From contig JAECYW010000003.1 of NCBI GenBank assembly GCA_023014335.1, positions 2,232,001 to 2,296,000 on the forward strand: 64,000 nt of DNA, given 5' to 3'. The notes below the pieces were generated by a model that saw nothing but the letters and a program-made list of their open reading frames with translations, was not told where the DNA came from and ran no database searches. This DNA is from Galerina marginata (lineage: Eukaryota > Basidiomycota > Agaricomycetes > Agaricales > Galerinaceae). This document shows positions 633 to 47,963 of this stretch, one piece after another (positions within the stretch are counted from its first letter, which is position 1; each line of letters opens with the position of its first letter). The position numbers and the translations under genes are program-made.

Positions 633-3600
633 CTTGGTCAGAGGCCATTGCTGCGCATGGCAAAAACAAGTTCTTACTTTTAAGGTGAGTCCGACTATAA
701 ATAAAGGTTAAATAAGTAAATAATATGTAGTCCGCTCAAATCTGAATGGATTTGGATGATCTTATACTCAAAAAAAGCAGAAAAATGAGGCCCTTCTAAC
801 AAGCCTAAAACGGCCTGGTCACGTGACCAGGAAGGCCCTGATTTTTACGAATTTTTTGATACCAAGATCATAAAAATTGGCCCAGTAATGGCTGAGATAC
901 AGAAACCATGCAGGGTCACTATAGCAGTGGGAGAATTTCCAACCATTGCGTTAGGAATGTTTTCTGCCTGCTATGCAGGCCGGAAAACAAGTTCTTTTAC
1001 TACGTAAGAACTTGTAACAAGATTAATTATTAGACTACAATAAGAAACTTGCAACAAGATTAATTTATACGTCGCTTAGTTTTTATCAGATTGCCTTGAA
1101 ACAAAGTGTGTAATTATCAAAAAAATCAGGGCTAAAAGATGGTGTCACATGCGTATTGTCACATCTTTATGTGACTTACCAAATGCGGAATATTGTTGAA
1201 AACACAGTAAATAAGCTATATTGAGAGATTTTAAAGGCATTAAAATAAAATAAAAATACTGATAATGTTTTTTTTACCTAAGAGATGGTCTGTGCACACA
1301 TATCACATGACATATCCCTGAGAATATTTTGGTCTAACTTGGTGCATTACCAAATCCAAGGCAATTGCACAAAGTCCTGCTGTGAGTTTGATTATGTAAG
1401 CTTCTAGAACATTATTTCCATGTTATTTGGTCATGTTTTGCAATGTTTGGTGTGCCTTTTATGGGTTATCCAGTCAGTTTAACACCAATTTTCGGATTTT
1501 CACCAAGTTGAGCTGACTGTTTGCTGGATTTGGACACCATGACATCATTGCAAAACATATGTAAATATTTGTACATTATTCTAGATTTGTCTGGGCAACA
1601 CATTTTAGCATATCTAGCTCAGTGAAATCTGTTTTAAGTGTAAATTCACACAAATTTGCGCTTTTTGGGTCGTGTGAACAGGTCACATGACTTAATCAAC
1701 CCTGGATACACATGCCACATGAAAGCCCTGATTTTTACGAATTTTTTGATACCAAGATCATAAAAATTGGCCCAGTAATGGCTGAGATACAGAAACCATG
1801 CAGGGTCACTATAGCAGTGGGAGAATTTCCAACCATTGCGTTAGGAATGTTTTCTGCCTGCTATGCAGGCCGGAAAACAAGTTCTTTTACTACGTAAGAA
1901 CTTGTAACAAGATTAATTATTAGACTACAATAAGAAACTTGCAACAAGATTAATTTATACGTCGCTTAGTTTTTATCAGATTGCCTTGAAACAAAGTGTG
2001 TAATTATCAAAAAAATCAGGGCTAAAAGATGGTGTCACATGCGTATTGTCACATCTTTATGTGACTTACCAAATGCGGAATATTGTTGAAAACACAGTAA
2101 ATAAGCTATATTGAGAGATTTTAAAGGCATTAAAATAAAATAAAAATACTGATAATGTTTTTTTTACCTAAGAGATGGTCTGTGCACACATATCACATGA
2201 CATATCCCTGAGAATATTTTGGTCTAACTTGGTGCATTACCAAATCCAAGGCAATTGCACAAAGTCCTGCTGTGAGTTTGATTATGTAAGCTTCTAGAAC
2301 ATTATTTCCATGTTATTTGGTCATGTTTTGCAATGTTTGGTGTGCCTTTTATGGGTTATCCAGTCAGTTTAACACCAATTTTCGGATTTTCACCAAGTTG
2401 AGCTGACTGTTTGCTGGATTTGGACACCATGACATCATTGCAAAACATATGTAAATATTTGTACATTATTCTAGATTTGTCTGGGCAACACATTTTAGCA
2501 TATCTAGCTCAGTGAAATCTGTTTTAAGTGTAAATTCACACAAATTTGCGCTTTTTGGGTCGTGTGAACAGGTCACATGACTTAATCAACCCTGGATACA
2601 CATGCCACATGAAAGCCCTGATTTTTACGAATTTTTTGATACCAAGATCATAAAAATTGGCCCAGTAATGGCTGAGATACAGAAACCATGCAGGGTCACT
2701 ATAGCAGTGGGAGAATTTCCAACCATTGCGTTAGGAATGTTTTCTGCCTGCTATGCAGGCCGGAAAACAAGTTCTTTTACTACGTAAGAACTTGTAACAA
2801 GATTAATTATTAGACTACAATAAGAAACTTGCAACAAGATTAATTTATACGTCGCTTAGTTTTTATCAGATTGCCTTGAAACAAAGTGTGTAATTATCAA
2901 AAAAATCAGGGCTAAAAGATGGTGTCACATGCGTATTGTCACATCTTTATGTGACTTACCAAATGCGGAATATTGTTGAAAACACAGTAAATAAGCTATA
3001 TTGAGAGATTTTAAAGGCATTAAAATAAAATAAAAATACTGATAATGTTTTTTTTACCTAAGAGATGGTCTGTGCACACATATCACATGACATATCCCTG
3101 AGAATATTTTGGTCTAACTTGGTGCATTACCAAATCCAAGGCAATTGCACAAAGTCCTGCTGTGAGTTTGATTATGTAAGCTTCTAGAACATTATTTCCA
3201 TGTTATTTGGTCATGTTTTGCAATGTTTGGTGTGCCTTTTATGGGTTATCCAGTCAGTTTAACACCAATTTTCGGATTTTCACCAAGTTGAGCTGACTGT
3301 TTGCTGGATTTGGACACCATGACATCATTGCAAAACATATGTAAATATTTGTACATTATTCTAGATTTGTCTGGGCAACACATTTTAGCATATCTAGCTC
3401 AGTGAAATCTGTTTTAAGTGTAAATTCACACAAATTTGCGCTTTTTGGGTCGTGTGAACAGGTCACATGACTTAATCAACCCTGGATACACATGCCACAT
3501 GAAAGCCCTGATTTTTACGAATTTTTTGATACCAAGATCATAAAAATTGGCCCAGTAATGGCTGAGATACAGAAACCATGCAGGGTCACTATAGCAGTGG

Positions 3601-3687
3601 GAGAATTTCCAACCATTGCGTTAGGAATGTTTTCTGCCTGCTATGCAGGCCGGAAAACAAGTTCTTTTACTACGTAAGAACTTGTAA
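633..3687 (+). mobile_element. Helentron-like non-autonomous element E1 (family 1), inserted in LINE ORF1
   Basis: Starts CTTGGTCAGAGG directly after host A at 632 and ends ..AACTTGTAA; the host resumes at 3688. Excision restores the ORF1 reading frame with no duplicated target bases. The 5' end holds the box GCCATTGC..GCATGGC, then CAAGTTCTTAC. The 3' end holds a hairpin whose stem is ACAAGTTCTT/AAGAACTTGT, so the 5' subterminal sequence is the complement of one stem arm. A 385-bp head is followed by three further 890-bp units. No protein gene is present. The layout fits Helentron/HINE elements, but the replicase type is inferred. Confidence 0.8.
1018..3687 (+). repeat. Three tandem 890-bp units of E1
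   Basis: Units are 1018-1907, 1908-2797 and 2798-3687. By eye they are identical to each other, and each ends in the element's terminal hairpin. The head unit ends in the same hairpin at 1017. Confidence 0.93.
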
Positions 3688-5718: not shown

Positions 5719-7903
5719 CTTGGTCAGAGGCCATTGCTACGCATGGCAAAAACAAGTTCTTACTTTGGGGTGAGGCAGTGCCTGAAGACTTACACTGTCA
5801 TTAAACAAATACATATTAAATACGTAAATAATATGTAGTCCGCTCAAATCTGAACCGATTTGGATGATCTTATACTCAAAAAAAGCAGAAAAATAAGGCA
5901 AATCTAACAAACCTAAAACGGCCTGGTCACGTGACCAGGAAGGCCCTGATTTTTACGATTTTTTTGATACCAAGATCATCAAAATTGGCCCAGTAATGGC
6001 TGAGATACAGAAACCATGCAGGGTCACTATAGCAGTGGGAGAATTTCCAACCATTGCGTTAGAAACCATTTCTGCCTGCTATGCAGGCCGGAAAACAAGT
6101 TCTTTTACTACGTAAGAACTTGTAACAAGATTAATTAATTGACTACAATAAGAACTTGTAACAAGATTAATTCTTACGTCACTTAGCTTTTATCGGATTG
6201 CCTTGAAACAAAGTGTGTAATTATCAGAAAAATCAGGGCTAAAAGATGGTGTCACATACGTATTGTCACATCTTTATGTGACTTACCAAATGCGGAATAT
6301 TGTTGAAAACACAGTAAATAAGCTATATTGAGAGATTTTAAAGGCATTAAAATAAAATAAAAATACTGATAATCTTTTTTTTACCTAACAGGTGGTCTGT
6401 GCGCACATATCACATGACATATTCCTGAGAATATTTTTGTCCAAGTTGGTGCATTACCAAATCCAAGGCAATTGCACAAAGTCCTGCTGTGAGTTTGATT
6501 ATGTAAGCTTCTAGAACATTACTTTCATGTTATTTGGTCATGTTTTGCAATGTTTGGTGTGCCTTTTATAGGTTATCCAGTCAGTTTAACACCAATTTTC
6601 GGATTTTCACCAAGTTGAGCTGACTGTTTGCCGGATTTGGACACCATGACATCATTGCAAAACATATGTAAATATTTGTACATTACTCTATATTGGTCTG
6701 GGCGACACATTTTAGCATATCTAGCTCATTCAAATCTGTTTTAAGCATAAATTCACACAAATTTGCGCTTTTTGGGTCGTGTGAACAAGTCACATGACCT
6801 AATCAACCCTGGATACACATGCCACATGAAAGCCCTGATTTTTACGATTTTTTTGATACCAAGATCATCAAAATTGGCCCAGTAATGGCTGAGATACAGA
6901 AACCATGCAGGGTCACTATAGCAGTGGGAGAATTTCCAACCATTGCGTTAGAAACCATTTCTGCCTGCTATGCAGGCCGGAAAACAAGTTCTTTTACTAC
7001 GTAAGAACTTGTAACAAGATTAATTAATTGACTACAATAAGAACTTGTAACAAGATTAATTCTTACGTCACTTAGCTTTTATCGGATTGCCTTGAAACAA
7101 AGTGTGTAATTATCAGAAAAATCAGGGCTAAAAGATGGTGTCACATACGTATTGTCACATCTTTATGTGACTTACCAAATGCGGAATATTGTTGAAAACA
7201 CAGTAAATAAGCTATATTGAGAGATTTTAAAGGCATTAAAATAAAATAAAAATACTGATAATCTTTTTTTTACCTAACAGGTGGTCTGTGCGCACATATC
7301 ACATGACATATTCCTGAGAATATTTTTGTCCAAGTTGGTGCATTACCAAATCCAAGGCAATTGCACAAAGTCCTGCTGTGAGTTTGATTATGTAAGCTTC
7401 TAGAACATTACTTTCATGTTATTTGGTCATGTTTTGCAATGTTTGGTGTGCCTTTTATAGGTTATCCAGTCAGTTTAACACCAATTTTCGGATTTTCACC
7501 AAGTTGAGCTGACTGTTTGCCGGATTTGGACACCATGACATCATTGCAAAACATATGTAAATATTTGTACATTACTCTATATTGGTCTGGGCGACACATT
7601 TTAGCATATCTAGCTCATTCAAATCTGTTTTAAGCATAAATTCACACAAATTTGCGCTTTTTGGGTCGTGTGAACAAGTCACATGACCTAATCAACCCTG
7701 GATACACATGCCACATGAAAGCCCTGATTTTTACGATTTTTTTGATACCAAGATCATCAAAATTGGCCCAGTAATGGCTGAGATACAGAAACCATGCAGG
7801 GTCACTATAGCAGTGGGAGAATTTCCAACCATTGCGTTAGAAACCATTTCTGCCTGCTATGCAGGCCGGAAAACAAGTTCTTTTACTACGTAAGAACTTG
7901 TAA
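5719..7903 (+). mobile_element. Helentron-like element E2 (family 1), inserted in LINE ORF2
   Basis: Same termini as E1 (CTTGGTCAG..TTGTAA) following host A at 5718. The host frame resumes at 7904, giving the uninterrupted K-S-V-T-S-R..WWPPEC linker. The head ends at 6125 and is followed by two 889-bp units. E2 differs from E1 at many positions, including just inside the 5' end (TTTGGGGTGAGG instead of TTTTAAGGTGAG), so E1 and E2 are independent insertions rather than a local copy. Confidence 0.8.
6126..7903 (+). repeat. Two tandem 889-bp units of E2
   Basis: Units 6126-7014 and 7015-7903 look identical to each other but differ from the E1 units at scattered sites. Homogeneity within an array and divergence between arrays is the notable feature. 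Confidence 0.92.
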
Positions 7904-10029
7904 CCTCCCGGTCCGCCTCTTGGTGGCCACCCGAGTGTGCCGAATCCCTGGCTACCTATCGTGCCTCCCTTTCGAGGCATGATTGGAAGTCTTTCCGCAA
8001 ACTCTGTAAAGAGGTTAAACGCAAGTTCTTCGAAGAACGTATCGTTGATATTGCATACTCCAACAAACGCCCCTGGGATCTGATGAATTGGACCCAGAAG
8101 CGTGTGTTACCTGCCTGCGAGGCTCTCTCCTACCAGGGGGCCCCGTGCATTTCACTTGACTCCCTTTGGGAAGCTCTTCACGGGACGTATAACTCGGCCT
8201 CCGGCCGAGAGTATGATCTCTCTCCTCTGGAACAAATCCCCGCCATGCCGGTTAGGGATTGGGTTCCTTTCTCCATGTTCGAACTCACGGAGGCTCTCTC
8301 CGCATGTTCGAGCAGATCCGCTCCGGGCCCTGACCACATCAGTTGGGCACACCTGAAGTGGTTTGTTAAGAAGGAAGGCGGTGCCGCCGACCTTTTCCTC
8401 CGGATCGCCAACGGATGCCTTGAGCATTCGCATTGGCCTTCCGCCTTTAAGGACTCGCTGTCGGTTATCATTCCGAAACCCGGCAAGCCTTCCTACTCCA
8501 CCCCAAAGTCTTTCAGGCCAATTGTGCTTCTGAATACTTTGGGGAAACTTATTGAGAAAATGATCTCAAATCGCATTCAGTTTGACGCCGTCAAATTTGA
8601 TGTTTTTCATCCAAATCAGGTTGGGGGCGTTCGGCAGCGCTCCACTGAGGATGCTGGCCTCTACTTAACGCACATTGTGCGTGCTGGGTGGGCTAAGGGA
8701 CTTAAAACGAGCGTTTTGGCGTTCGATCTGGCCCAATTCTTTCCGTCGATAAATCATGACGTTTTATTGGCGGTGCTGGCCAAGCAGGGGTTTCCACCAA
8801 ATGTGGTGAAATTCTTTGCTTCTTATCTTGTTGGCCGTTCCACGCAGTACGCGTGGAATGCCTTCGTCTCCCCGCATCGGTCTGCAGACGTGGGGGTGGG
8901 GCAGGGTTCTGCTCTATCACCCGTTTTGTCGGCCCTTACGTTGGCGCCCATCATGCGCCTCTTCGAGCAGCATCGTGACAAATGCTGGCTCCTTTCCTAT
9001 GTCGACGACGGTACACTCATTGTGCAGTCGAAGTCGCTCGACATAAATTGTTTGCTCCTCAAAAAAGCTTACAAAGTTATTTTCGAACTGTTCACTCAGT
9101 TCGCTCTCGTCCTCGAGCACGACAAGTCGGAGATTTATCACTTTGACAGGTCGCACTCGGATTACAACCCTTCAATTGATCTGGGCTATGCCCCGTTCAC
9201 TGGAGCCACTCCCTTGAAGCCCAAGCCGTTCTGGCGATACTTGGGTTTCTTTTTTGACCGCAAGCTCACCTTCCATGAGCATGTGCGATTTTACTCGACC
9301 AAGGCATTCTCGTCGGTGAAAGCCATGAGAATGCTTGGTTCGTCCACTCGCGGGTTGGAGCCTACTGAAAAGAGGCTCCTGTACCGATCTTGCGTGGTGC
9401 CCATAGCCACCTATGGGTATCGTTTATGGTTCTTCGAAGGCGCCCGCTGCAAGGGCGCTTTGAAGCTTTTAGGTCAGATGCAGCGTAAGGCTGCTCTCTG
9501 GATTACAGGTGCGTTCTCTACGTCCCCCGGTCCTGGTGTGGAGGCCCTTGCCGGCCTCTTCCCCTTTCATCTTCTCCTCGAGAGGCTCAACTACCGCGCA
9601 ATCCTGCGCGTTGGTACCCTCTCCGGGACTCACCCCGTTCGGTCGTTATTGGCCGGACACATGTTGGGCAAGGCCACGCCTCACCCCCTCTCCTACCACT
9701 CGATGTCCCGCCGTCAAAAGCTGAACACGAAGGGTCCTATTTCGGAGATCATCAAGAAGCTCCCCATCCTGACCGAGCGTTTGGAGCCCATGGCTTCGCA
9801 TGCCCGGCCAGGCCATCGATTCCGCGATCGTTACTGGTCGCAGGTCACTTTTGAGGAATCTCTGGCCCCGCTCAACGAGGACAGGGATTTCAATTATTAC
9901 CTCGATTTCATCTTCGACATGTTCATGTGGGATGAGGGAGGTGTTTGCATTGGGACCGACGCTTTGTTGGAGAACCAAGAAGCTTTCTCCTTCGCCCGCC
10001 AAGCGGCAGCACCGCAAGGCATTGGGTAA

Positions 10030-10715: not shown

Positions 10716-10721
10716 GACTAC

Positions 10722-11336: not shown

Positions 11337-11380
11337 TAAGATAAGATAAGATAAGATAAGATAAGATAAGATAAGATAAA
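11337..11380 (+). repeat. Microsatellite (GATAA)n
   Basis: A run of about eight GATAA units, perfect except at the end. Confidence 0.9.
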
Positions 11381-12679: not shown

Positions 12680-12689
12680 CAACCCCAAA

Positions 12690-13110
12690 AAAAAAAAACT
12701 TCAGAAAAGCGTACTTCATTCAATACAACTGAAGTAAATAGAAACTTTCAGGGTTTAGCCATATATGCTATACATATACCATCATAACCAGAGCAATGAC
12801 ATATGACAGACCAAAAAGTAAAAAGAGACATGTAGAAGGCTCATAATTAGTCATGTTACTGGCAAGACCTAACCTTAGATTAGGTGTACAGGAACAAAAG
12901 CTAAAAATAGACCCTAGCAACGGACATCAGACAACCATTCCCATGGTCAATAATAATTTTGAAACTATTAGAAAAGTTTGTAGACTTTTAATTCAGGGTC
13001 AGTCACAAAAAGTGAAGCAGTGGGAGAATTTCCATCGTTTTTGTTAGGAACCATTTGCTTCTGCTATCAAGTGTAGAAAACGAGTTCTTTTACTACGTAA
13101 GAACTCGTAA
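12690..13110 (+). mobile_element. Helentron-like family 2 element, 3' end defined
   Basis: The end is sharp: hairpin CGAGTTCTT..AAGAACTCG followed by TAA at 13,108-13,110, the family 1 end with A-to-G/T-to-C changes in the stem. Upstream sequence matches 48,470-48,823 (same strand) and 50,299-51,150 (opposite strand). The 5' end could not be placed; the CTTGG/GCCATTGC box was not found. A 64-codon ORF inside is not conserved and is ignored. 13,111-13,437 holds nothing I recognise. Confidence 0.6.
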
Positions 13111-18533: not shown

Positions 18534-19367
18534 TTATGAGTCCTTTGATTTATCAAAGACTCATTCTTTATAAACCTAGAACTTAGTTGAAAATTTCATT
18601 CATTCATTGATCATTCAATACCGCGGAAAAGAATTTCCCAAAAAGGAAACTTTTGACCAAATAATAGATTTAGGTCCCCTGACTATAAATATCAAAAAAC
18701 AATGTGACTAGCTATGTCTGTTCCTGAGATATTGATCTTTTCAGTCCAAAAATCACAAAAGTGCTGGCTTTTTTTGAGTATTTTGCATTTTTCTTAATAG
18801 GGAAGGCAGCTAATCACATGATTTCAACAGATGCAGGGTCCTCAAATCATTTCCCACTACTTTGTTTGTTTTTTCCTAAAAAGGTAATTGCCAAATTGGG
18901 TAACTTTCTCCCACCTAATATAACAAGTTGAACTTTGAAGCTTCTTTCTTCTTTTTCTCTATCACCAATGAAGCTATTGACTTGGTTTTTTTTGCTATGA
19001 CCTCTGGCTATTTTCATCTATTATCTAAAACACTCTCTTAGCCTCTAAAACATTTGGTTTTCTCATATTATTTTACATAATTAAATTGTACTTGAAGTGA
19101 AGATGTTTTAATGACTTGATTGTAGTATATGTCTGACATAGGGCTTGGCTCCAATGGACAATAAATGGATAAAAAAAAACAAAAAAAATGGTTTGATCAT
19201 GATAGTTACGTAGCTAGATAGAAATATCTATATTTTAATAACTTGTAATGATAAATGCTGAAAAAAATAAAAAAATAAAAAATCAACCTTAAATTGTGAA
19301 AAGTATAACTTTTGAAATTGAAGAGGACTCATACATGCCATGCGTAGTAATGGCCCATACCCCCAAG
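18534..19367 (-). mobile_element. Helentron-like family 3 element, long copy (834 bp)
   Basis: Read on the minus strand it starts CTTGGGGGTATGGGCC after host A. It carries the box GCCATTACTACGCATGGC and GTATGAGTCC, and ends in a hairpin ATGAGTC..GGACTCAT followed by AA. The same design with a different stem sequence is present at 41,122-41,583. It interrupts the GC-rich block. No coding capacity. Confidence 0.72.
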
Positions 19368-23893: not shown

Positions 23894-25680
23894 CTATGCT
23901 CATTGTTCTAAATATAGCTATAATTCAAGATTTAAATACACAATCATATCTAAAAATAGATAATCATGTGACATGTGACATTTAGACTTTTAAGTGTTTG
24001 AACAGCATATCCAACATGTTTGAAGTGCTTTAAATGCTAAATTAATCAATCAATGCTTTAAATAGAAGCAATTTCCAAAGGTGATCAGATGTGGCTGTGC
24101 TACTAACAAAAGTTGTACTACTCATCAGGGCGATTCTAAATCTGTTTAAATCATAACTGTATCTTCTTTCCTTATTGAGATAAAAGCTGCATCAAAATCG
24201 TTATCAGGCTTCTTGAAAACAGATTTGGCAGATGGGAAAATTTCCCAAAAAGGAAAGAGTATCTCAAAAGAAAGTAATATATTTTTAAACCTTTTTACAA
24301 TTTAAATCATATCAATATTCACTTTTCTGACTGAGATATAAGCAAAACAAGATTGGTTCTAAAAATAGCTGATATGACCATAAATGGAAATAGTTCCTAA
24401 TTGGGAAATTCAGGGTCAGCTAAAAATAAAAATGATTCCAAAATGTTTTAAGGCTATAGTTTAAAAATAGACACACTTCTAAAAATAGACCTTCTCTAAA
24501 AATAGAAACATCAAAAATATTTTTAATGTCTAAAAATAGAAATACTTCTAAAATAAGATTTTGAAATTTAGATCTAAATATAATAGGTATAAGCTATTGT
24601 TTCTTTTAATACTTATCTGTATTATAATTTAATGCTTATTTACAAGAAAAAATCTATTTCTCAATACAAGTCTTTTAAAATGTCATTAGATTATAATGAG
24701 CTTAGTTTTTACTTGCTTGCAATTATTTAGATATTAGAAAATGCAAAAAATTCAAATCTACAAGATGGTATTTATTGATATAAATGCTAGTATAGGCTAT
24801 AATCAAAAAAATGCTATAGTTTATATATATATATATATATATTATTTGCTTTGATATAGATTGCTTCTTGTGTGTTGGGTCAGGTAGACCTGTGCCTAAA
24901 GAAATGACATTACAGCATATTTATAGCTATTCTAGAAAAGCCACAGGAATTTTTTTAATTACAAGTTCTTACGTAGTAAAAGAACTTGTTTTCCGGCCTG
25001 CATAGCAGGCAGAAATGGTTCCTAACAAAACCAATGGAAATTCTCCCACTGCTATAGTGACCCTGCATGGTTTCTGTATCTCAGCCATTACTGGGCCAAT
25101 TTTGATGATCTTGGTATCAAAAAATTCGTAAAAATCAGGGCCTTCCTGGTCACGTGACCAGGCCGTTTTAGGCTTGTTAGATTCGCCTTATTTTTCTCCT
25201 TTTTTTGAGTATAAGATCATCCCAATCGGTTCAGATTTGAGCGGACTACATATTATTTATGTATTTAATATATATTTATTTAATAACAGTGTAAGTCTTC
25301 AGGCACTGCCTCACCCCAAAGTAAGAACTTGTTTTGCCATGCGCAGCAATGGCCTCTGACCAAGTTTGGAGGACCCCTGCCACCAGAATATATTTCTAAA
25401 ATACAAAACTTTGCCAAGACGTCACAAAAAACATTTGATTTTGTTTTTTATAAAATTTATTTTCTGAAGAATATTTATTATTAGAAAACATTTTTCACAA
25501 AAGACCCCTGCCACCACCTGTCAAAAAAACATTATACTAAACCCTAAAAAACATTTTAAAAATCTGAAGATTATTCTTGGAAAAAATTGTTTTCGGAAAT
25601 GTTTTCAGCCTTCCTTTAGATTGTATTTCCTATCAGGAATTAATCAACCTAAGAGGTTAGTTCCGGGGGGTCACTGAAGT
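23894..25680 (-). repeat. Right arm of the 1.4-kb inverted repeat, interrupted
   Basis: Complement of 21,268-22,672 with scattered differences and one clean 406-bp insertion. The left arm is the empty site for that insertion. Confidence 0.85.
24959..25364 (-). mobile_element. Helentron-like element E6 (family 1), minimal 406-bp copy
   Basis: Head unit only, with no 890-bp units: TTACAAGTTCTTACG.. at the left (3' end on the minus strand) and ..CTCTGACCAAG at the right. The opposite arm of the host inverted repeat (around 21,575-21,595) shows the uninterrupted sequence CCAAATTAAAAAAATTCC. The insertion therefore lies between A and T with no target duplication and no loss. Confidence 0.85.
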
Positions 25681-30959: not shown

Positions 30960-31190
30960 GTACAATAAATGATGGATAGGGCTGTGCTGTGCAGCCATTA
31001 AAGCCATGTACATAGCATTGCGCAGTCATTAAAACCATATACATAGCATTGCGCAGTCATTCACAGTCATTAAAGTCATATACATAGCATTGCGCAGTCA
31101 TTAAACCTACGCATATAGCATTGCGCAGTCATTAAAGCTATGTACATAGCATTGCACTGTCATTAAGGCTATTTATATAGCATTGCGCAG
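30960..31190 (+). repeat. 31-bp minisatellite, left part
   Basis: Units like CATTAAAGCTATGTACATAG plus CATTGCGCAGT recur about six times. The array continues at 32,576-32,870 after a LINE insertion. It lies upstream of the cassette A SET gene. 30,335-30,959 holds no supported gene. Confidence 0.85.
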
Positions 31191-32575
31191 TTTTTTTTTT
31201 TTTTTTTTAAATCAACAATTTATATACCGGTGCGCGAAAGCAGTCCGGTCGCCTAACTAATACAAATCCCCGGTCGAAAGCGCGCAATAAACTACTAATC
31301 CCCGAACCAGACCCGAACCCTTCCACTTCTTCCGAATCCTTCCAACGGCGTCCTTCGTGCGCCAGGCCTTTGCTAGGGGGGACGGACCACCTAACCGTCC
31401 AGTCCCGCGAGGGAGGGACGGCCCCCACCGCTACGCCAATACCACGTAAGGACCGAAGCCCGAACATCTCCTGGCAGCCGCAGCTGCTGCACTCTCTCCA
31501 CCTTCCAAACCCGGCGTCCGCTTCCAGACCCGAACCCACCCCGAAAACCCTCGCCCACCCGCGCCTTGACGACCCGAAACCCGTACCAGCCATTAACAAA
31601 GCAGAGTGGGAGGTTAAGGCACCCAACCGATCGCGAAACGAATGAACAAAACGCGACCGCCCAAGCCAAAAATGTCGCTAACGCTCGAGATGCGGGCGAC
31701 TCTGTAACCACCGGTTGTAGCGAATGCAACCGGGTGCGAGGAGTGGAGAACGCGCGGGCACGACGACCCCGTCCTTGGCCTGTCAACCTCTGCCGACTTG
31801 GGGATTGGACTTCCCTCGCCTGCAGCAACCCGAAAGCGGGTATCAAGGCCTCTCTGGGCGAAGAGAACTGCGCGGACACAGTTAGCCTATGCCTGCGGCG
31901 GGGCGTTCGAAGGAGAATGCGGTGGGATTTTCCAACAAGAATTCCAAAAGACTGTGTAACCGGTCCGTCGGAGCGGGTCTCTCGTAGCCTGGGCAGTACG
32001 AGAGGATGTGCGAGCGGGTCTCGCGAGGAGCACCGCATCGGGGGCAGCCGTGAGGCTCTTGTATGTTAAACCGGCGGTAGTACGCACCGATTGGTGCATG
32101 ATTCAGTATACACCTGCACAAGCGCGCAAAGGAAGTGTTGTCACCTCCTGCCTTGCGGATCCATGGACCACCCTTACGAGTATCCGGGGTTATAGTGACG
32201 ACCTTCTTGCCCAGCTTCCGAAGCTGGAGGAAGTCGCGACCGAGATCCTGCGGACGATCCGTTGCAGCCTTAGCCCAACGATGCGCCGCGGTGGCGTCCG
32301 CCTCCAAGCGGAGGCGATCGAGAGTGACCCGTGAACCATGGTCCACAGGCCGGTGAACGGAGCCAGCAGCGTGCTTGTGCGCCTCATGTTGCATACCCCA
32401 CTTGAGTTTAGAGGGGACGTGGTGAAATGACAACCAGCGTAGCGGATCACCCGCCAGCCAGGTCTCAATGAGCTTGCAAGCGCACAGGGAGTGAGCCTGC
32501 GACGAATGCAAAGAAGGGTCAAGGGCTCGTTTCGCAGCCGCGATCGAGTCCGTGAAGATTGCAATGTGCTCACAA
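31191..32575 (-). mobile_element. 5'-truncated Tad1-like LINE fragment
   Basis: Minus strand. Poly(T) at 31,191-31,208 marks the 3' end, followed by the family 3' UTR and the C-terminal part of ORF2. The 5' truncation lies at about 32,575, inside the minisatellite. A target duplication was not clear because the target is itself repetitive. Confidence 0.85.
31882..32575 (-). pseudogene. LINE ORF2 C-terminus: RNase H domain and zinc motif
   Basis: Reads AIFTDSIAAAKRAL (RNase H D-S motif), HVPSKLKWGMQHEAHKHA (the late RNase H motif), then CPRCGAPRETRSHILSYC (zinc-binding, CCHC type), ending FSFERPAAGIG. The frame is open but lacks its N-terminus, so it is a dead fragment. It shows what the LINE family normally carries after the RT. 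Confidence 0.85.
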
Positions 32576-32870
32576 GCTATGTAAGTATCATCACACTGTC
32601 CTAAAGCTATGCATGTAGTGTTGCATAGCCTGTAAAGCCATGAAAGTAGTATTGCACAGCTATTAAAGCTATGAGATTAGTATCGCGCAGCCTTTAAAGC
32701 TATGAAATTAGTATCGCGCAGCCTTTAAAGCTATGAGATTAGTATGGCGCAGCCTTTAAAGCTATGAAAGTAATATTGCGCAGCCTTTAAAGCTATGAAA
32801 TTAGTATCGCGCAGCCTTTAAAGCTATGAAATTTGTATCGTGCAGCCCTAAACCTATGAGAGTATGTCTA
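32576..32870 (+). repeat. 31-bp minisatellite, right part
   Basis: AAAGCTATGAAATTAGTATC plus GCGCAGCCTTT repeats at least six times, more regular than the left part. Ends about 50 bp before the SET gene start. A short degenerate counterpart (ATAGCTTTATGGCTATGCA) precedes the intact SET gene at 60,190-60,350. Confidence 0.88.
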
Positions 32871-33729: not shown

Positions 33730-36408
33730 TTACAAGTTCTTACGTAGTAAAAGAACTTGTTTTCCGGCCTGCATAGCAGGCAGAAAACATTCCTAACGCA
33801 ATGGTTGGAAATTCTCCCACTGCTATAGTGACCCTGCATGGTTTCTGTATCTCAGCCATTACTGGGCCAATTTTTATGATCTTGGTATCAAAAAATTCGT
33901 AAAAATCAGGGCTTTCATGTGGCATGTGTATCCAGGGTTGATTAGGTCATGTGACCTGCTCACACAACCCAAAAAGCGCAAATTTGTGTGAATTTACACT
34001 TAAAACAGATTTCAGTGAGCTAGATAGGCTAAAATGTGTGGCCCAGACCAATCTAAAATAATGTACAAATATTTACATATGTTTTGCAATGATGTCATGG
34101 TGTCAAATCAGGCAAACAGTCAGCTCAACTTGGTGAAAATCCGAAAATTGGTGTTAAACTGACTGGATAACCCATAAAAGGCACACCAAACATTGCAAAA
34201 CATGACCAAATAACATGAAAATAATGTTCTAGAAGCTTACATAATCAAACTCACAGCAGGACTTTGTGCAATTGCCTTGGATTTGGTAATGCACCAACTT
34301 GGACAAAAATATTCTCAGGGATATGTCATGTGATATGTGCGCACAGACCACCTGTTAGGTAAAAAAAAGATTATCAGTATTTTTATTTTATTTTAATGCC
34401 TTTAAAATCTCTCAATATAGCTTATTTACTGTGTTTTCAACAATATTCCGCATTTGGTAAGTCACATAAAGATGTGACAATACGCATGTGACACCATCTT
34501 TTAGCCCTGATTTTTCTGATAATTACACACTTTGTTTCAAGGCAATCCGATAAAAACTAAGCAACGTATAAATTAATCTTATTACAAGTTTCTTATTGTA
34601 GTCTAATAATTAATTAATCTTGTTACAAGTTCTTACGTAGTAAAAGAACTTGTTTTCCGGCCTGCATAGCAGGCAGAAAACATTCCTAACGCAATGGTTG
34701 GAAATTCTCCCACTGCTATAGTGACCCTGCATGGTTTCTGTATCTCAGCCATTACTGGGCCAATTTTTATGATCTTGGTATCAAAAAATTCGTAAAAATC
34801 AGGGCTTTCATGTGGCATGTGTATCCAGGGTTGATTAGGTCATGTGACCTGCTCACACAACCCAAAAAGCGCAAATTTGTGTGAATTTACACTTAAAACA
34901 GATTTCAGTGAGCTAGATAGGCTAAAATGTGTGGCCCAGACCAATCTAAAATAATGTACAAATATTTACATATGTTTTGCAATGATGTCATGGTGTCAAA
35001 TCAGGCAAACAGTCAGCTCAACTTGGTGAAAATCCGAAAATTGGTGTTAAACTGACTGGATAACCCATAAAAGGCACACCAAACATTGCAAAACATGACC
35101 AAATAACATGAAAATAATGTTCTAGAAGCTTACATAATCAAACTCACAGCAGGACTTTGTGCAATTGCCTTGGATTTGGTAATGCACCAACTTGGACAAA
35201 AATATTCTCAGGGATATGTCATGTGATATGTGCGCACAGACCACCTGTTAGGTAAAAAAAAGATTATCAGTATTTTTATTTTATTTTAATGCCTTTAAAA
35301 TCTCTCAATATAGCTTATTTACTGTGTTTTCAACAATATTCCGCATTTGGTAAGTCACATAAAGATGTGACAATACGCATGTGACACCATCTTTTAGCCC
35401 TGATTTTTCTGATAATTACACACTTTGTTTCAAGGCAATCCGATAAAAACTAAGCAACGTATAAATTAATCTTATTACAAGTTTCTTATTGTAGTCTAAT
35501 AATTAATTAATCTTGTTACAAGTTCTTACGTAGTAAAAGAACTTGTTTTCCGGCCTGCATAGCAGGCAGAAAACATTCCTAACGCAATGGTTGGAAATTC
35601 TCCCACTGCTATAGTGACCCTGCATGGTTTCTGTATCTCAGCCATTACTGGGCCAATTTTTATGATCTTGGTATCAAAAAATTCGTAAAAATCAGGGCTT
35701 TCATGTGGCATGTGTATCCAGGGTTGATTAGGTCATGTGACCTGCTCACACAACCCAAAAAGCGCAAATTTGTGTGAATTTACACTTAAAACAGATTTCA
35801 GTGAGCTAGATAGGCTAAAATGTGTGGCCCAGACCAATCTAAAATAATGTACAAATATTTACATATGTTTTGCAATGATGTCATGGTGTCAAATCAGGCA
35901 AACAGTCAGCTCAACTTGGTGAAAATCCGAAAATTGGTGTTAAACTGACTGGATAACCCATAAAAGGCACACCAAACATTGCAAAACATGACCAAATAAC
36001 ATGAAAATAATGTTCTAGAAGCTTACATAATCAAACTCACAGCAGGACTTTGTGCAATTGCCTTGGATTTGGTAATGCACCAACTTGGACAAAAATATTC
36101 TCAGGGATATGTCATGTGATATGTGCGCACAGACCACCTGTTAGGTAAAAAAAAGATTATCAGTATTTTTATTTTATTTTAATGCCTTTAAAATCTCTCA
36201 ATATAGCTTATTTACTGTGTTTTCAACAATATTCCGCATTTGGTAAGTCACATAAAGATGTGACAATACGCATGTGACACCATCTTTTAGCCCTGATTTT
36301 TCTGATAATTACACACTTTGTTTCAAGGCAATCCGATAAAAACTAAGCAACGTATAAATTAATCTTATTACAAGTTTCTTATTGTAGTCTAATAATTAAT
36401 TAATCTTG
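33730..36408 (-). repeat. Three tandem 893-bp units of E3
   Basis: Units 33730-34622, 34623-35515 and 35516-36408 look identical to each other and differ from E1, E2 and E4 units by substitutions (for example CCAGACCAATCTAAAATAAT and CACCTGTTAGG variants). Confidence 0.93.
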
Positions 36409-36793
36409 TTACAAGTTCTTACGTAGTAAAAGAACTTGTTTTCCGGCCTGCATAGCAGGCAGAAAACATTCCTAACGCAATGGTTGGAAATTCTCCCACT
36501 GCTATAGTGACCCTGCATGGTTTCTGTATCTCAGCCATTACTGGGCCAATTTTTATGATCTTGGTATCAAAAAATTCGTAAAAATCAGGGCCTTCCTGGT
36601 CACGTGACCAGGCACAATTAGGCTTGCTAGAATTGCCTCATTTTTCTGCTTTTTTTGAGTATAAGATCATCCAAATCGGTTCAGATTTGAGCGGACTATG
36701 CATTATTTACTTATTTAACCTGTATTTATAGTCGGACTCACCTTGAAAGTAAGAACTTGTTTTTGCCATGCGCAGCAATGGCCTCTAACCAAG
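33730..36793 (-). mobile_element. Helentron-like element E3 (family 1), inserted in the SET gene
   Basis: Minus strand: 3' hairpin end at 33,730 (TTACAAGTTC) and 5' end at 36,793 (..CTAACCAAG). Host after removal reads GTTTA/TTGCTATT, matching GTTTGTTGCC of the intact gene with no lost or duplicated base. The 385-bp head lies at 36,409-36,793 and is followed (leftwards) by three 893-bp units. Confidence 0.82.
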
Positions 36794-40820: not shown

Positions 40821-42420
40821 ATGGATCAATTCTATGATATGAAAGCTACCGGTTAGTCAAACTTTCATAGTTTTTTCTCTTATTAACGAGATTTTAGAAA
40901 GTAAAGTGGAAAGACTTGCGGAAAGCCAGGTACATAAAAGGAAGCAGTTATGTCATTTTAATGCGGTATGTAACCATGTATGTCTTTTAAAATGACAAAT
41001 GTGACTGAAACAATACTAGACAGACGGCATTAAGAATCAGGTCCAAGTCACTCCAGTGGAGCAAAATAGAAGCTGGAAACTTATCCGTAATATGACCACT
41101 GAAGACGCTGAAGAAGTGGTACTTGGTGTGGGCCATTGCTTCGCATGGCATAGATGAGTCCTTTTCAATTTCAAAAGTTAAAATTTTCAAAATTTAGAAT
41201 TGATTTTAAATTTTCTAATCATTATTTTTTTAAGTAGCATTCATGATTACAAGTTATTAAAATATAAAGTACTTTTTTGGATTTTTATTTAACTACTGCC
41301 TTCCTTATTGAGAAAAAAACTCAAAAAAAACTCAAAAAAACCTGGTGCTTTTGTGATTTTTGGACTTAAAAGGTCAATATCTCAGGAATGAAAATAGCAA
41401 GTCACATGATTTTTTCAGATTTATAGTCAAAGGACCTAAATCTATTATTTGATCAAAAATTTCTTTTTTGGGAAATTTTTTTCCGCGGTGTTGAATGATC
41501 AATGAATGAATGAATCAATGAAAATTTCAACTAAGTTCTGGGTTTATAAAGAATGAGTCTTTGATAAATCAAAGGACTCATAATTGCGTGTTCAAGGTGT
41601 ATTAAGCCAGAAGTCACTTCCACCTATATCGCAGCCATTTAATATGTAAGTCAGAAAAGTTGTCAAAAACACTAAAGAGCCACCCAATGTTAAATATAAT
41701 ATACACACAGTGAACCTAAACAACGACATTTTATGCGGCAATCAGTAACACTCACTGGACTGGGCAGCACACTTTTCTATCAGGCTATACAAAATGCTCA
41801 AGAAATTCACCAGATATTCTCACGCACCTTTCCACAAGGCGCTCTCGAGGATTGGAATTCTGCTTCTTTTGAAGGCTATCCAGCTATTGACATGAACAAC
41901 CGCTTTTTCACACTTCGCAAACATGCAATCACGGATGAAATATTACCTTTCTCAAATGAAGTCGATCCACATGGAATCCTTGCTGCTGCTATGGATATTG
42001 ATGAACAGTTTGTTCATACTACAGAAAATGAAGTTGAGTACTATGAACTCCTTGATGATCGTGAACAAGAAACCAAGTAAGTTTCTGTTCTGATTACACC
42101 TTTTAAGATCTTTAGTAATAATCATGCAGGTATCAACAAGTCAATCCTATAAAGTTCCGGTGTGGAGATATCGTTGAAGCCCAACTTTCCTTTATCTGTA
42201 TCCAAATGAAGAATGCAAAATATAGGATGTTGACGGTTCTTCGGGCAATTACCATTTTGGACACCTCATCTTTAAGGGTGCGTATTGAGTTATTAAGCTT
42301 GTGATGATTAGACTCTGATGTAACTTGACTTTAGGAAGCTGCCATAATACGCAATCGAACTAAAAACCAGACAATCAGGCAGGTTTCTTTAAAAAGAAAG
42401 GTTGGATATGCCACAGATGA
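40821..42420 (+). pseudogene. Cassette A gene 4: FRxGDIVEAQ protein, disrupted and missing its tail
   Basis: Exons 40821-40851, 41024-41121 + 41584-41645, 41711-42076, 42130-42277 and 42335-42420. The second exon is split by a family 3 element (41,122-41,583). The last exon is cut at 42,420 by E4, and its remaining 49 bases lie inverted at 46,641-46,689. Motifs: VTLTGLGSTLF, a DPHGILAAAM/VHTTENEVEYYEL block, FRCGDIVEAQLSF and MLTVLRAITILDTSS. This pattern resembles a hypothetical-protein family I know from agaricomycete genomes. Function unknown. Compare the intact copy at 54,446-55,627. Confidence 0.8.
41122..41583 (+). mobile_element. Helentron-like family 3 element (462 bp), inserted in gene 4
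   Basis: Starts CTTGGTGTGGGCCATTGC after host A at 41,121, with box GCCATTGCTTCGCATGGC and GATGAGTCCTTTTC. Ends in hairpin ATGAGTC..GGACTCAT then AA. Removal gives E-E-V-V-L-R-V-Q-G-V-L-S, identical to the intact gene 4. The 5' end is clearly related to family 1, while the hairpin stem differs. Confidence 0.85.
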
Positions 42421-43694
42421 CTTGGTCAGAGGCCATTGCTGCGCATGGCAAAAACAAGTTCTTACTTTCAAGGTAAGTCCGACTATAAATAAAGGTTAAA
42501 TAAGTAAATAAGGCATAGTCCGCTCAAATCTGAAGCTATTGGGATGATCTTATACTCAAAAAAAGCAGAAAAATGAGGCGGATCTAACAAGCCTAAAATG
42601 GCCTGGTCACGTGACCAGGAAGGCCCTGATTTTTACGAATTTTTTGATACCAAAATCATCAAAATTGGCTGAGTAATGGCTGAGATACAGAAACCATGCA
42701 GGGTCACTGTATGAGTGGGAGAATTTCCAACCATTGCATTAGGAATGTTTTCTGCCTGCTATGCAGGCCGGAAAACAAGTTCTTTTACTACGTAAGAACT
42801 TGTAACAAGATTAATTATTAGACTACAATAAGAAACTTATAAGAAGATTAATTTATACGTCGCTTAGTTTTTATCAGATTGCCTTGAAACAAAATGTGTA
42901 ATTATCAGAAAAATCAGGGCTAAAAGATGGTGTCACATGCGTATTGTCACATCTTTATGTGACTTACCAAATGCGGTATATTGTTGAAAACACAGTAGAT
43001 AAGCTATATTGAGAGATTTTAAAGGCATTAAAATAAAATAAAAATACTGATAATGTTTTTTACCTAAGAGATGGTCTGTGCACACATATCACATGACATA
43101 TCCCTGAGAATATTTTGGTCTAACTTGGTGCATCAACTGATTCCAAGGCAATTGCACAGAGTTCTGTTGTGAGTTTGATTATGTAAGCATCTATTACATC
43201 ATATTGAAGCTATTTGGTCATGTTTTGCATTGTTTGGTATGCCTTTTATGGGTTATCCAGTCAGTTTAACACCAATTTTGCGATTTTCACTGAGTTAAGC
43301 TGGCTGTTTGCCAGATTTAGACACCATGACATCATTGCAAAACATATGTAAATATTTGTACATTATTTTAGATTGGTCTGGGCAACATATTTTAGCATAT
43401 CTAGCTCACTGAAATCTGCTTCAAGTGTAAATTGACACAAATTTGCGCTTTTTGGGTTGTGTGAACAAGTCACATGACCTAATTGACCCTGGATACACAT
43501 GCCACATGAAAGCCCTGATTTTTACGAATTTTTTGATACCAAGATCATCAAAATTGGCCCAGTAATGGCTGAGATACAGAAACCATGCAGGGTCACTATA
43601 GCAGTGGGAGAATTTCCATTGGTTTTGTTAGGAACCATTTCTGCCTGCTATGCAGGCCGGAAAACAAGTTCTTTTACTACGTAAGAACTTGTAA
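42421..43694 (+). mobile_element. Helentron-like element E4 (family 1), left member of an inverted pair
   Basis: 1,274 bp: head to 42,805, then one 889-bp unit. The left junction GATGA/CTTGG lies in the last exon of gene 4. The matching right host side (AGTTGTAGAAGC) is not adjacent but at 46,689 read backwards, beside E5. Confidence 0.85.
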
Positions 43695-44014: not shown

Positions 44015-44201
44015 GTGAAGAAAGTGTATACTCATAAACTCAGGAGAAAATCTCTGTGGATATAATAAATAACATGTAGATTCTTCTATATACATCACAT
44101 TTCTATATACATATCTATACATACGTCAGCTCTATTTACATACATGATAAGATTAATCGTCGGCTGCAGCAAATATCTATCAATAGCAAGTTTACTCAAA
44201 T

Positions 44202-46175
44202 TTAGTTATAGAAATTACGCTGATAACTTACAAATCCAGATGGCCTCCCTGCTTGTGGTGCTCCACATACTCCAGCTCCAACTGTCCAGTATATAGTATC
44301 GAGCCGTGGTCGTATGTGGTTGAAATTGATGCCAGGCATAACATAACCCATATCACCTGCTGCTGGAACAATTTGGCATTTGAGGAAAGGCCAAAGAATA
44401 CATCCGCGATCTCCAATAACTCAAGGAGTCAGTGGACAGACTGGATCAATGCGGCATCGATGCTCAAGTGCCATGGTATTCCCACCCATTTCAATATTAT
44501 GAAGATCGCAAGTAGTGATGAATCCTCTATTGGCATATTTCCTTTGCAAGTTGGTTGAGATTTCTTCAGCTTCATGCCTTCCAAGGTAGGGATTGTTGCG
44601 GTTTTGGTCAAAGGCCATCCATGGATTGTTCAGAGAGATGCGGAAGTGAAGAAGTGCAGGGTAGGCAGAGAATAGACCTTTTGGAGTGATCGCATTCATC
44701 ATCGCGGTGGTTGGCTCATAGAAAATTGATTCCAGTGGAGAGTGTCCATTTTTGATAATGAGAATCCGGATTGTGTGTCCTGCATCCTTGTGGGAAAAGA
44801 TGATGCGGTCACAGATGACAGGATTATAAGAATGGAATCTGGTGTCAGGGATATAGAGAGTGTAGCCATGGAGGATTTTGGTTTGGAAGAGTCGGACTGC
44901 GTGGGTAGACATGACGATATCGAGATTATTGGAGTTGAAGCGCTGGTCTTTTGGAAGGAGGGGCTGAAGAGCAAAGGATCCAGTGATGATGGCCTGACAG
45001 TCTGCCAGAGCTGACATGAAAATATCCAGAGTGAATCCAAAATCCTCTAGCATGGATCCAATCAAGTTGCAGTTATACCGGTTTAAACAAAAAAGATGAC
45101 TTTTGCTGGTTTCAGCAAAAGATTGGCGATCATATGCAGAGAGATTGTCGAGTATTTTGTTCTGAATAACAGCTGGAAGAAAGAATGTTTTGCTGTGCTG
45201 AACAGCATATGTTACTTGGTTGACTGTTCATATAATCAGATATCAATAGTCAGATAAATAATAACACAAGCTTACTGATATTACCGCTTAGGATTCCAAC
45301 AGACTTGGCAAGAATCAGAATAAAAGCCTGGACATCTGGTCCTAGAACTTCTTCTTCTGCTAAAGCGATCAAATCAACAAGATTTTTGGAGTTTCCCCAT
45401 CTGTCCCAGAGAGTTTTTGATGCGTGTTTGAGTTCGTCTGATAGGTGAGGGATACTACTGTTGACCTCGAAGATGTTAGGTCTCTTGGTTACCCTGTCTT
45501 CACCAACAGGAATTGGTATAGTTGCGCCCAAGTTAATGTCGAGACAAGCTGCAGCTTGGCGAACCACGCAAATGGCATGACGACGAGATTCTTCATTTTT
45601 CATGGATTGGTTGACAATAGATTGAACTGTGCCTTTCCACAACAACTTGAGAGCATCGCAATTGAACTTTCCTAGTGGAAGATTATTGGAAATGAAGCGT
45701 TCTAGATGGAGCTCTCTAGCATCCTCTTCCAGAGGATACTCAAGTTCTTCAGACACTATGGTTAATTTTAATCAGTAAGTTATAAAGTTATATATAAGTT
45801 TGATTACTTACTATTTGTATCTTCTATTACAGTATTATTGGCCTCTGTATGAAAAGTATTGAGTCAATATTATTAACATAGTCATAAACTCTAGACATAC
45901 CTATAATCGAAACACCAGAGTTGTTGGCCTCTGTATGAAAAGTATTGAGTCAATATTATTGACATAGTCATAGACTCTAGACATACCTATAATCGGAACA
46001 CCAGAGTTGTTTGCCGTATCCACTTGATTGGTAGCTGTGGAGGCCTTGTGAATTCTAGCAGAGCGACGACGGTAAGGTGTTTCTATTATTTAAAAGATTA
46101 GCTTTATAACAATTTTGAATTCAAATATAACCCACCAGCATGAGTGGCTTGCTTTTTAGTTTGACTTTTGGCCAT
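44202..46175 (-). CDS. Cassette A gene 5: F-box-like protein
   Basis: Minus strand, ATG at 46,175 (MAKSQTKKQATHA), stop at 44,202; exons follow the copy at 52,071-53,955. A large exon starts SEELEYPLEEDARELHLERF and includes NIFEVNSSIPHLSDELKHAS. The last exon starts with an F-box-like segment (FLPAVIQNKILDNLSAYD, then RQSFAETSK). It continues with a long conserved C-terminal region (CQAIITGSFALQPL, SIFYEPTTAMMNAITPKGLF). No stop or frameshift noticed, so the frame may be intact, but the gene lies in an inverted segment. F-box proteins recruit substrates to SCF ubiquitin ligases; that role is only suggested here. Confidence 0.72.
45836..46012 (-). repeat. 86-bp tandem duplication of a small exon and intron in gene 5
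   Basis: The block GCCTCTGTATGAAAAG..CACCAGAGTTGTT occurs at about 45,841 and again 86 bp later, with few differences. The corresponding part of the other copy (about 53,710-53,800) has it once. Confidence 0.8.
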
Positions 46176-46329
46176 AGTGACGATAACAGGAAGAATAGAG
46201 AATATTTAGCTAGAGAGTACGAGTGGAGGAGAAAGGAAAGGAACTGAAGAAATTGGACGAAGTTGAACCAGATTATATATTGTATCGGCTAGTCTTCCCT
46301 GAAGCAGTGACAGACTCTTTTGCGGCAAG

Positions 46330-46520
46330 CTCCAGAAGATCCGCAAGATCCGTAACCTCTTCTGAGTGCATAAGATCCGCAACTCTATTCAATACTGAAG
46401 ATTTGTAAGCCCTATTCAATACTGAAGATTTGTAAGCCCTATTAAATACACAAGATCCGTAAGCTTATGCAAGATCCGTTTACACAAGATCCGTAACCTT
46501 ACACAAGACAAGACCCTTGC
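46330..46520 (-). promoter_or_regulatory. AGATCCG motif cluster upstream of gene 5 (copy A)
   Basis: AAGATCCGTAA, AAGATCCGCAA and near variants occur about six times in 190 bp, between the ends of genes 4 and 5. A counterpart cluster lies at 54,090-54,260. It could be a binding-site array or a short degenerate satellite. Confidence 0.55.
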
Positions 46521-46640
46521 TTAATAGCGTATGCGGTCCATCCGGTCACAAATTTGCTATAAGATTATCCAACTTGTTAAATCTTTTATTAATATATTTA
46601 TATTGAATAAAGAAACTGCTATTAGAGTATCATGAAATAT

Positions 46641-46689
46641 CTAATCTTTCAGTTTCATACGGCTCAGTCTATCGCGTGCTTCTACAACT
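46641..46689 (-). pseudogene. Displaced, inverted 3' end of cassette A gene 4
   Basis: On the minus strand it reads (E)VVEARDRLSRMKLKD-stop, which continues the exon broken at 42,420 exactly (GATGA + AGTTG) and matches the intact gene 4 end at 54,446-54,494. Confidence 0.88.
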
Positions 46690-47963
46690 TTACAAGTTCT
46701 TACGTAGTAAAAGAACTTGTTTTCCGGCCTGCATAGCAGGCAGAAATGGTTCCTAACAAAACCAATGGAAATTCTCCCACTGCTATAGTGACCCTGCATG
46801 GTGTCTGTATCTCAGCCATTACTGGGCCAATTTTGATGATCTTGGTATCAAAAAATTCGTAAAAATCAGGGCTTTCATGTGGCATGTGTATCCAGGGTCA
46901 ATTAGGTCATGTGACTTGTTCACACAACCCAAAAAGCGCAAATTTGTGTCAATTTACACTTGAAGCAGATTTCAGTGAGCTAGATATGCTAAAATATGTT
47001 GCCCAGACCAATCTAAAATAATGTACAAATATTTACATATGTTTTGCAATGATGTCATGGTGTCTAAATCTGGCAAACAGCCAGCTTAACTCAGTGAAAA
47101 TCGCAAAATTGGTGTTAAACTGACTGGATAACCCATAAAAGGCATACCAAACAATGCAAAACATGACCAAATAGCTTCAATATGATGTAATAGATGCTTA
47201 CATAATCAAACTCACAACAGAACTCTGTGCAATTGCCTTGGAATCAGTTGATGCACCAAGTTAGACCAAAATATTCTCAGGGATATGTCATGTGATATGT
47301 GTGCACAGACCATCTCTTAGGTAAAAAACATTATCAGTATTTTTATTTTATTTTAATGCCTTTAAAATCTCTCAATATAGCTTATCTACTGTGTTTTCAA
47401 CAATATACCGCATTTGGTAAGTCACATAAAGATGTGACAATACGCATGTGACACCATCTTTTAGCCCTGATTTTTCTGATAATTACACATTTTGTTTCAA
47501 GGCAATCTGATAAAAACTAAGCGACGTATAAATTAATCTTCTTATAAGTTTCTTATTGTAGTCTAATAATTAATCTTGTTACAAGTTCTTACGTAGTAAA
47601 AGAACTTGTTTTCCGGCCTGCATAGCAGGCAGAAAACATTCCTAATGCAATGGTTGGAAATTCTCCCACTCATACAGTGACCCTGCATGGTTTCTGTATC
47701 TCAGCCATTACTCAGCCAATTTTGATGATTTTGGTATCAAAAAATTCGTAAAAATCAGGGCCTTCCTGGTCACGTGACCAGGCCATTTTAGGCTTGTTAG
47801 ATCCGCCTCATTTTTCTGCTTTTTTTGAGTATAAGATCATCCCAATAGCTTCAGATTTGAGCGGACTATGCCTTATTTACTTATTTAACCTTTATTTATA
47901 GTCGGACTTACCTTGAAAGTAAGAACTTGTTTTTGCCATGCGCAGCAATGGCCTCTGACCAAG
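46690..47963 (-). mobile_element. Helentron-like element E5 (family 1), right member of an inverted pair
   Basis: 1,274 bp, the same length as E4 and nearly identical to it (one visible difference: GGTGTCTGTATC versus GGTTTCTGTATC). One 889-bp unit (46,690-47,578) plus head (47,579-47,963). The right host side TCTATTAGAAATG pairs with the palindrome arm at 43,981. Confidence 0.85.

Follow-up and report, generated by a model that had tools for sequence, protein, structure and literature searches.

The window analysed here is a 64,000-bp stretch of Galerina marginata DNA (C23:2232001-2296000; genome 69.3 Mb, 43 contigs). The RPB2 fragment of this genome points to a gilled mushroom as the probable source: of 120 relatives listed, the nearest that carry a species name were Agrocybe pediades (97% over 92%), Marasmius (94%) and Mycena (93%). 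It contains eight short, hairpin-ended elements which are very probably non-autonomous rolling-circle transposons of the Helitron2 type, with a RepHel protein of ~2,600 aa (HUH plus PIF1-type helicase) acting in trans. The features observed in support are the termini, clean empty sites, a one-base target rule, intact long frames in which HUH and Walker motifs are present, and three complete autonomous copies with the same hairpin as one of the short families. The window's first and second element families are called family 1 and family B, and the groups of RepHel copies are called A, B, C, D and X. Strands of elements are given as the conventional 5' to 3' strand.

The box GCCATTGC..GCATGGC was found seven times exactly in the window, compared with 0.02 expected, and once more with one mismatch. 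Eight elements could be delimited, each with the box at one end and a hairpin end at the other (Table 1). In all the sequence examined, consisting of the window and the extracted loci, there were 25 boxes at up to two mismatches, and 19 of them were paired with a hairpin end, the outermost of an array being taken when several hairpins stood in a row. The six unpaired boxes comprised one at a truncated locus edge and five in RepHel copies whose opposite end either escaped detection or lay outside the sequence examined. Genome-wide, with up to three mismatches allowed, 592 3' ends and 1,171 5' hairpins were detected, and the reversed-pattern controls gave none. A first-pass annotation, made from the letters of the window alone, had proposed ten junctions in three families. 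Eight of these junctions proved to be real insertions, while GGGA/TTGG and CAGA/CGAG were not found as elements; the right flanks of two insertions had been swapped, and the correct junctions are ATGA/TTAA and ATAGA/AGTT. Delimited elements were obtained for two of the families, and the third is present in the window as isolated hairpins only, with no complete element.

The insertion sites follow a strict rule. The base preceding CTTG was A in all 19 paired insertions, and the base following TAA was T in eight, C in six, A in five and G in none. No other position within 12 bases of these junctions was fixed. Across the genome, exact family 1 termini were preceded by A in 394 of 394 cases and never by C, G or T, and no exact 5' hairpin was preceded by C on the coding strand. 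The target on the coding strand is D^T (D standing for A, G or T), and the annotation had stated the same rule as elements that start CTTGG after a host A, with the host continuing with T, C or A.

Removal of the elements leaves uninterrupted DNA without target duplication, which also bears out the earlier description. The joined flanks of element 5719-7903 matched at full length (300/300 bases, 91-96% identity) in 11 of 38 matches, and at least one alignment bridging an empty site was obtained for 11 of the 19 insertions. In the eight bridging alignments of at least 90% identity, which cover five insertions, the junction was ungapped and the A was kept. Among weaker alignments, one of 72% identity had a gap at the junction, and one of 82%, for 41122-41583, showed a paralogue with T instead of A. 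The empty site that the annotation had noted for 24959-25364 was found elsewhere in the window (Table 1). Cut-and-paste elements with terminal hairpins, moved by a DDE transposase, are refuted by these duplication-free sites, and the autonomous copies studied encode RepHel; nothing was found in favour of this explanation, and we give it next to no credence. Neither target duplications nor a DDE transposase in an autonomous copy, either of which the annotation had regarded as fatal to its proposal, was seen.

At the conventional 5' end, the host base D is followed by TTAC and the AAGTTCTT hairpin, that is, by TT and then the inverted repeat and hairpin. The conventional 3' end is made up of the inverted repeat, the GCCATGC.GCAATGGC palindrome and 11 nt ending in CCAAG, after which the host continues with T. 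The opposite orientation, with the CTTGG box as 5' end, had been assigned in the annotation and was rejected because the RepHel ORF (open reading frame) runs toward the CTTGG end; relative to the RepHel coding strand the box marks the conventional 3' end. Helitron2 elements have been described with a 5' T, a 5' terminal hairpin, a 5' repeat 0-2 bp from the end and a subterminal 3' repeat ~20-30 bp from the end, upstream of a stable 3' hairpin, together with a RepHel protein and no target duplication in most copies of short families (Bao and Jurka 2013, PMC3627910; here and below, statements on published systems refer to parts of the cited papers). In the present elements, the 5' stem starts at base 3 of TTACAAGTTCTT and TTATGAGTCC, within the published 0-2 bp, and none of 200 shuffles folded as well as the 5' hairpins of the two families. 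The 3' inverted repeat, TAAGAACTTGT, stops 33 bp short of the terminus, ahead of GCCATGC.GCAATGGC, just past the published distance. The absence of target duplication and a RepHel with HUH Rep and helicase were likewise found here.

The enzyme was sought with the PF14214 (Rep) profile, which gave 120 matches here; 14 control genomes gave none, but as prokaryotes they are a weak control. Scores of at least 190 bits were reached by 18 matches; the frames of at least 2,500 aa are among the rest, and 29 stop-free frames of 2,500-2,940 aa were listed (counted by eye). Ten long-frame loci were inspected, namely three A, three B, one C, one D and two X copies. The HxH and GGM.GTGKS motifs were present in all ten frames, and DUF6570, Helitron_like_N and PIF1 domains in all six frames scanned with Pfam. 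The N-terminal region was poorly conserved in alignment, and no paper on DUF6570 was found. All seven copies of groups A, B and C terminate shortly after the ORF stop, in the reverse complement of the box. Of group B, three copies are complete (11,004, 10,648 and 10,029 bp), each beginning with the family B hairpin, as in 41122-41583, and terminating in CCAAG or GCAAG followed by T, so that a long copy with Rep and helicase, for which the annotation had suggested a search, does exist. The ORF of one A copy starts ~11 kb past the window's right edge. None of seven ORFs upstream of A, C and X copies had a Pfam domain, and therefore no accessory function is claimed for them.

RepHel most likely nicks at the 5' terminus and peels off or copies one strand up to the single 3' terminus, and the freed strand would most likely be joined into D^T with nothing duplicated or lost. 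By analogy with the family, a single strand would be transferred, and pairing of the 5' and 3' repeats would mark the end. The rolling-circle nature and Helentron/HINE-like layout suggested in the annotation agree with the termini, the empty sites and RepHel. The system looks recently active.

Other observations were made around the RepHel copies. L006 and 17 further loci, all at or above 190 bits, form a second Rep group in this genome, 16 of the 18 lying outside the repeat blocks described below. At C40:2444305-2552693, six Rep matches lie within ~108 kb, four of them with the same score and a 2,646-aa frame, two per strand; the cluster looks like an inverted segmental duplication. The upstream parts of B copies contain long GC-rich inverted repeats around GAGCACAGTC.GACTGTGCTC, two to three within ~1.5 kb (Table 1). 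A palindrome with telomere-like letters, TAACCCTAA/TTAGGGTTA, is complete at window position ~48033-48084, where it adjoins GCACAGCCACA, and at least half of it is present again upstream of an A copy on C6 (composite near 3,640); it is perhaps the end of another element.

The C-terminal tail of RepHel has a ubiquitin-specific protease (USP)-like fold. The boxes SC.YDS, Y.G..HF and W..DG were invariant in all six tails and supply a Cys, a His and an Asp, which we take to be the catalytic residues of the USP family. The Pfam UCH and UCH_1 cut-offs were not reached; one of the six tails matched UCH_1 with 20.9 bits against 22.2. Among 70 long homologues, the strict motif was found in 10, a loose form in 14 and a relaxed form in 38, and of the 32 without relaxed boxes, the six displayed carry HY or other variants. 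The domain may remove ubiquitin or a ubiquitin-like protein, and in this way may protect the transposase or open its chromatin. No description of a USP-like domain in Helitron2 was found in the literature consulted, which did not extend to supplements or subscription journals and so cannot prove absence.

Several points weigh against the Helitron2 assignment. The 3' palindrome is conserved, and shuffled sequences are predicted to fold as stably (z -0.55 and -1.30). The two inverted repeats of the complete autonomous B copies agree at 10 of 12 positions by manual count, so the annotation's statement that the stem is always complementary to the subterminal sequence at the other end is true in a loose sense. 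The D copy, which is dispersed, has a divergent box after its ORF stop that ends in CTAG before T and would fit the Helitron1 CTRR as well, and at the end of the two X copies no box was seen. For the A, C, D and X copies the 5' end was not found; a search for the A-copy end with the expected hairpin found nothing, and in two A copies homology runs out near composite position 3,770 with no clear hairpin. No autonomous partner with ends identical to those of family 1 was found, the A and C ends being similar to them. Support for the HUH Rep consists of the domain match and HxH, and not of the Rep tyrosine. Finally, placement in the Helitron2 clade would follow from the layout and from low similarity to Helraiser, a Helitron1: a 2.6-kaa RepHel scored 32 bits against Helraiser, in the helicase only, and L006, the one member of the ≥190-bit group compared, is Helraiser-like with 589 bits.

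Helentrons or HINEs in the strict sense, with RepHel carrying a C-terminal apurinic/apyrimidinic (AP) endonuclease and insertion into TT, have the same general layout of subterminal inverted repeats and a stem-loop, and DINE-1-like elements are likewise commonest in drosophilid centromeres and heterochromatin (PMC4067079). However, no endonuclease domain was detected in any of the six Pfam-scanned frames; these scans omitted only the last 88-183 residues per frame, and the six tails, scanned separately, contained none either and were USP-like. The target here needs one T, with A, G or T on its other side. Because of the lacking endonuclease and the non-TT target, strict Helentrons are very improbable. 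Families 1 and B begin with TTA and end in CAAG, instead of the 5' TC, 3' CTRR and A/T site of Helitron1. Filing the elements as DDE transposons, strict Helentrons or Helitron1 was rejected on the duplication-free sites, the lack of an endonuclease, and the termini and target.

The annotation had also raised the possibility of a new lineage. In favour of a mechanism unlike that of all known Helitrons, the TTA...CCAAG termini and the one-base target match no Helitron1, Helitron2 or Helentron quoted in PMC5148889, where the targets are TTTT^T/C for Helitron2, TNAT^A (or T) for FoHeli1/2, TT for Helentrons and A^T for Helitron1. Yet targets and terminal letters already differ among published Helitron2 members (PMC5148889), and the one-base target is therefore a variant, not a different kind. 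Moreover, the Helitron2 structural features are present, bar a measurably stable 3' hairpin, and the protein is an HUH-PIF1 RepHel. Since the layout is the published one, the elements need not be a new lineage of mechanism, and we consider such a lineage scarcely credible.

Some of the Helitron2-type elements here have more than one 5' end. The internal left flank TTAATCTTG preceded 535 of the 1,171 hairpins, and in the listed rows and the window the hairpin repeats with a period of 843-893 bp, up to ~10 times. The sequence examined contained 16 units in six arrays, two of which are single-unit. Units of one array were 99.97% identical (22 pairs, lowest 99.89%), and units of different arrays 94.7% on average (98 pairs, highest 99.89%). 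Over their first 180 bases, units and core showed no difference at two decimals in the three multi-unit elements that lie in the window. In the two single-unit elements, 42421-43694 and 46690-47963, the outer 5' end is 91% identical to the inner one and 99-100% identical to that of the 406-bp element; the same composite stands at two sites with different flanks, and therefore moved by way of its outer end. Where several 5' hairpins are present, the element may have begun as a composite, with one element nested in another and movement starting at the outermost hairpin, and arrays would later have grown by copying or recombination between repeats; slippage at the hairpin or unequal exchange could be responsible. 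For short multiple 5' ends in Fusarium, self-insertion has been proposed (PMC5148889).

The elements are clustered in blocks. All 94 sampled ends (exact ends preceded by GA) lay in blocks on 16 of the 43 contigs; neighbouring ends were a median of 21.7 kb apart, whereas an even spread would give a mean of 737 kb. The block spans total 5.3% of the genome, or 7.6% with 60-kb margins; three contigs are less tidy, C4 and C39 with two groups each and C40 with a span of 530 kb. The count of 94/94 is not independent, because elements of this kind also served to define the blocks, and counts of Rep and of the long interspersed nuclear element (LINE) family are more independent of the block definition. 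With 60-kb margins, 45 of 98 Rep matches of 60-190 bits fell within blocks, as did two of 18 in the Helitron1-like group; four matches below 60 bits were not counted, and some of the 98 are fragments, including at least one (L020) that is a piece of a Helitron1-like copy by alignment. Among the three complete B copies, the one at C10:144693 falls outside the blocks as defined. For the LINE family of the joined stretch flanking 5719-7903, 37 of 38 matches were inside blocks, and the clustering is therefore not special to Helitron2.

The blocks may be centromeres, by analogy with Agaricus bisporus, in which a single cluster of repeats, 110-280 kb long and proposed to be the centromere, is present on each chromosome; about half of it consists of cluster-specific repeats, and retrotransposons predominate (PMC7473861). 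The dense repeat blocks resemble these putative centromeres, but differ in that Helitron2 copies are numerous and several blocks are larger or split. The clustering might reflect loss of insertions elsewhere, by selection or recombination, rather than targeting, a possibility to which we give an even chance and which is compatible with Helitron2-type transposition. The confinement of the LINE family and the repeat-rich putative centromeres of A. bisporus point that way. Against it, 53 of the 98 RepHel matches of 60-190 bits persist outside blocks, so the arms tolerate such insertions, and the copies inside blocks are fairly alike (94-98% for A, 97% for two B copies, in protein), which suggests no long sorting. 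That the Helitron2 lineage prefers each chromosome's centromere, guided or protected by its USP-like domain, and builds satellite arrays by multiplying the 5'-end unit is conceivable but rather unlikely. No description of block-confined Helitron2 elements was found in the same literature, again apart from supplements and subscription journals.

Table 1 Elements, isolated hairpins and upstream repeats (window positions unless a locus is named)
Position	Strand	Feature	Supporting observation
633..3687	-	Non-autonomous Helitron2-like element, family 1, 3,055 bp, three 890-bp 5'-end units; conventional 5' end at 3687, 3' end at 633	Empty site in related LINE copy, 90.6%
5719..7903	-	Family 1 element, 2,185 bp, two 889-bp units, within LINE	Full-length empty sites, 11/38 matches
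18534..19367	+	Family B element, 834 bp, hairpin ATGAGTCC	Box and hairpin pairing
24959..25364	+	Family 1 element, 406 bp, single 5' end	Empty site elsewhere in window, 94.5%
33730..36793	+	Family 1 element, 3,064 bp, three 893-bp units	Box and hairpin pairing
41122..41583	-	Family B element, 462 bp	5' hairpin is that of the complete autonomous B copies
42421..43694	-	Family 1 composite, 1,274 bp, one 889-bp unit	Identity of 91% between its outer and inner 5' ends
46690..47963	+	Family 1 composite, 1,274 bp	Same composite as 42421-43694, other site and flanks
13075..13109	-	Lone 5' hairpin, ACGAG type, like repeat of autonomous family C	Matching 3' end not found
48788..48822	-	Lone 5' hairpin, ACGAG type; right half of the GGGA/TTGG junction proposed earlier	
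50300..50334	+	Lone 5' hairpin, ACGAG type	
L023 89-137, 762-789, 1437-1470; L027 655-682, 1322-1349		GAGCACAGTC.GACTGTGCTC repeats	

Further features of the window were noted beside the elements. A LINE-type reverse transcriptase frame lies at 7894-10029 on the plus strand (RVT_1, 97 bits) and belongs to the LINE whose joined stretch gave the 37 of 38 matches inside blocks. An ORF at 59328-60164 on the minus strand has a weak SET domain match (23.6 bits, cut-off 22.4); a SET domain has been reported from a proto-Helentron (PMC4067079). Tandem arrays of a related 31-bp unit are found at 30991-31191 and 32602-32859. The stretches 44166-44465 and 52035-52334 are duplicates with 92% identity, and the 268-aa and 341-aa ORFs near them had no Pfam match.

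With these results, previously unclassified short repeats are tied to an enzyme, hundreds of insertions give an exact target rule, and composites with several 5' ends are shown to move as one unit. Related RepHel lineages, clustered and dispersed, occur in one nucleus, where insertion targeting and later loss are directly testable against each other. The near-identical 5'-end arrays offer a possible route from transposon to centromeric satellite DNA.

Compared with known systems, the elements are most like Helitron2, with which they share the 5' hairpin, asymmetric inverted repeats, 3' palindrome, 5' T, lack of duplication and RepHel. They differ in the target (A/G/T^T here, TTTT^T/C published), in the distance of the 3' repeat (33 bp here, ~20-30 bp published) and in the USP-like tail, of which the part of PMC3627910 used here makes no mention. 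FoHeli1-5 of Fusarium oxysporum (Chellapan and others, PMC5148889) are also fungal, of Helitron2 type and with asymmetric inverted repeats; some copies have several 5' ends and one 3' end, and autonomous copies are ~5-11 kb. Their duplicated 5' parts are typically <200 bp, whereas arrays of 843-893 bp units are found here, and the word 'ubiquitin' occurs 0 times in the main text of that paper, in contrast to the USP-like tail here. Helentrons and DINE-1/HINE elements are alike in their subterminal inverted repeats, stem-loop, non-autonomous derivatives with internal repeats, and abundance in centromeres and heterochromatin, and differ in the TT target and fused AP endonuclease, neither of which was found here (PMC4067079). 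Helentrons with VTD or OTU deubiquitinases are likewise RepHel elements that carry a deubiquitinase (PMC9741609); those are of the VTD and OTU classes and in animals, whereas the fungal RepHel has a C-terminal USP-like fold, a putative protease.

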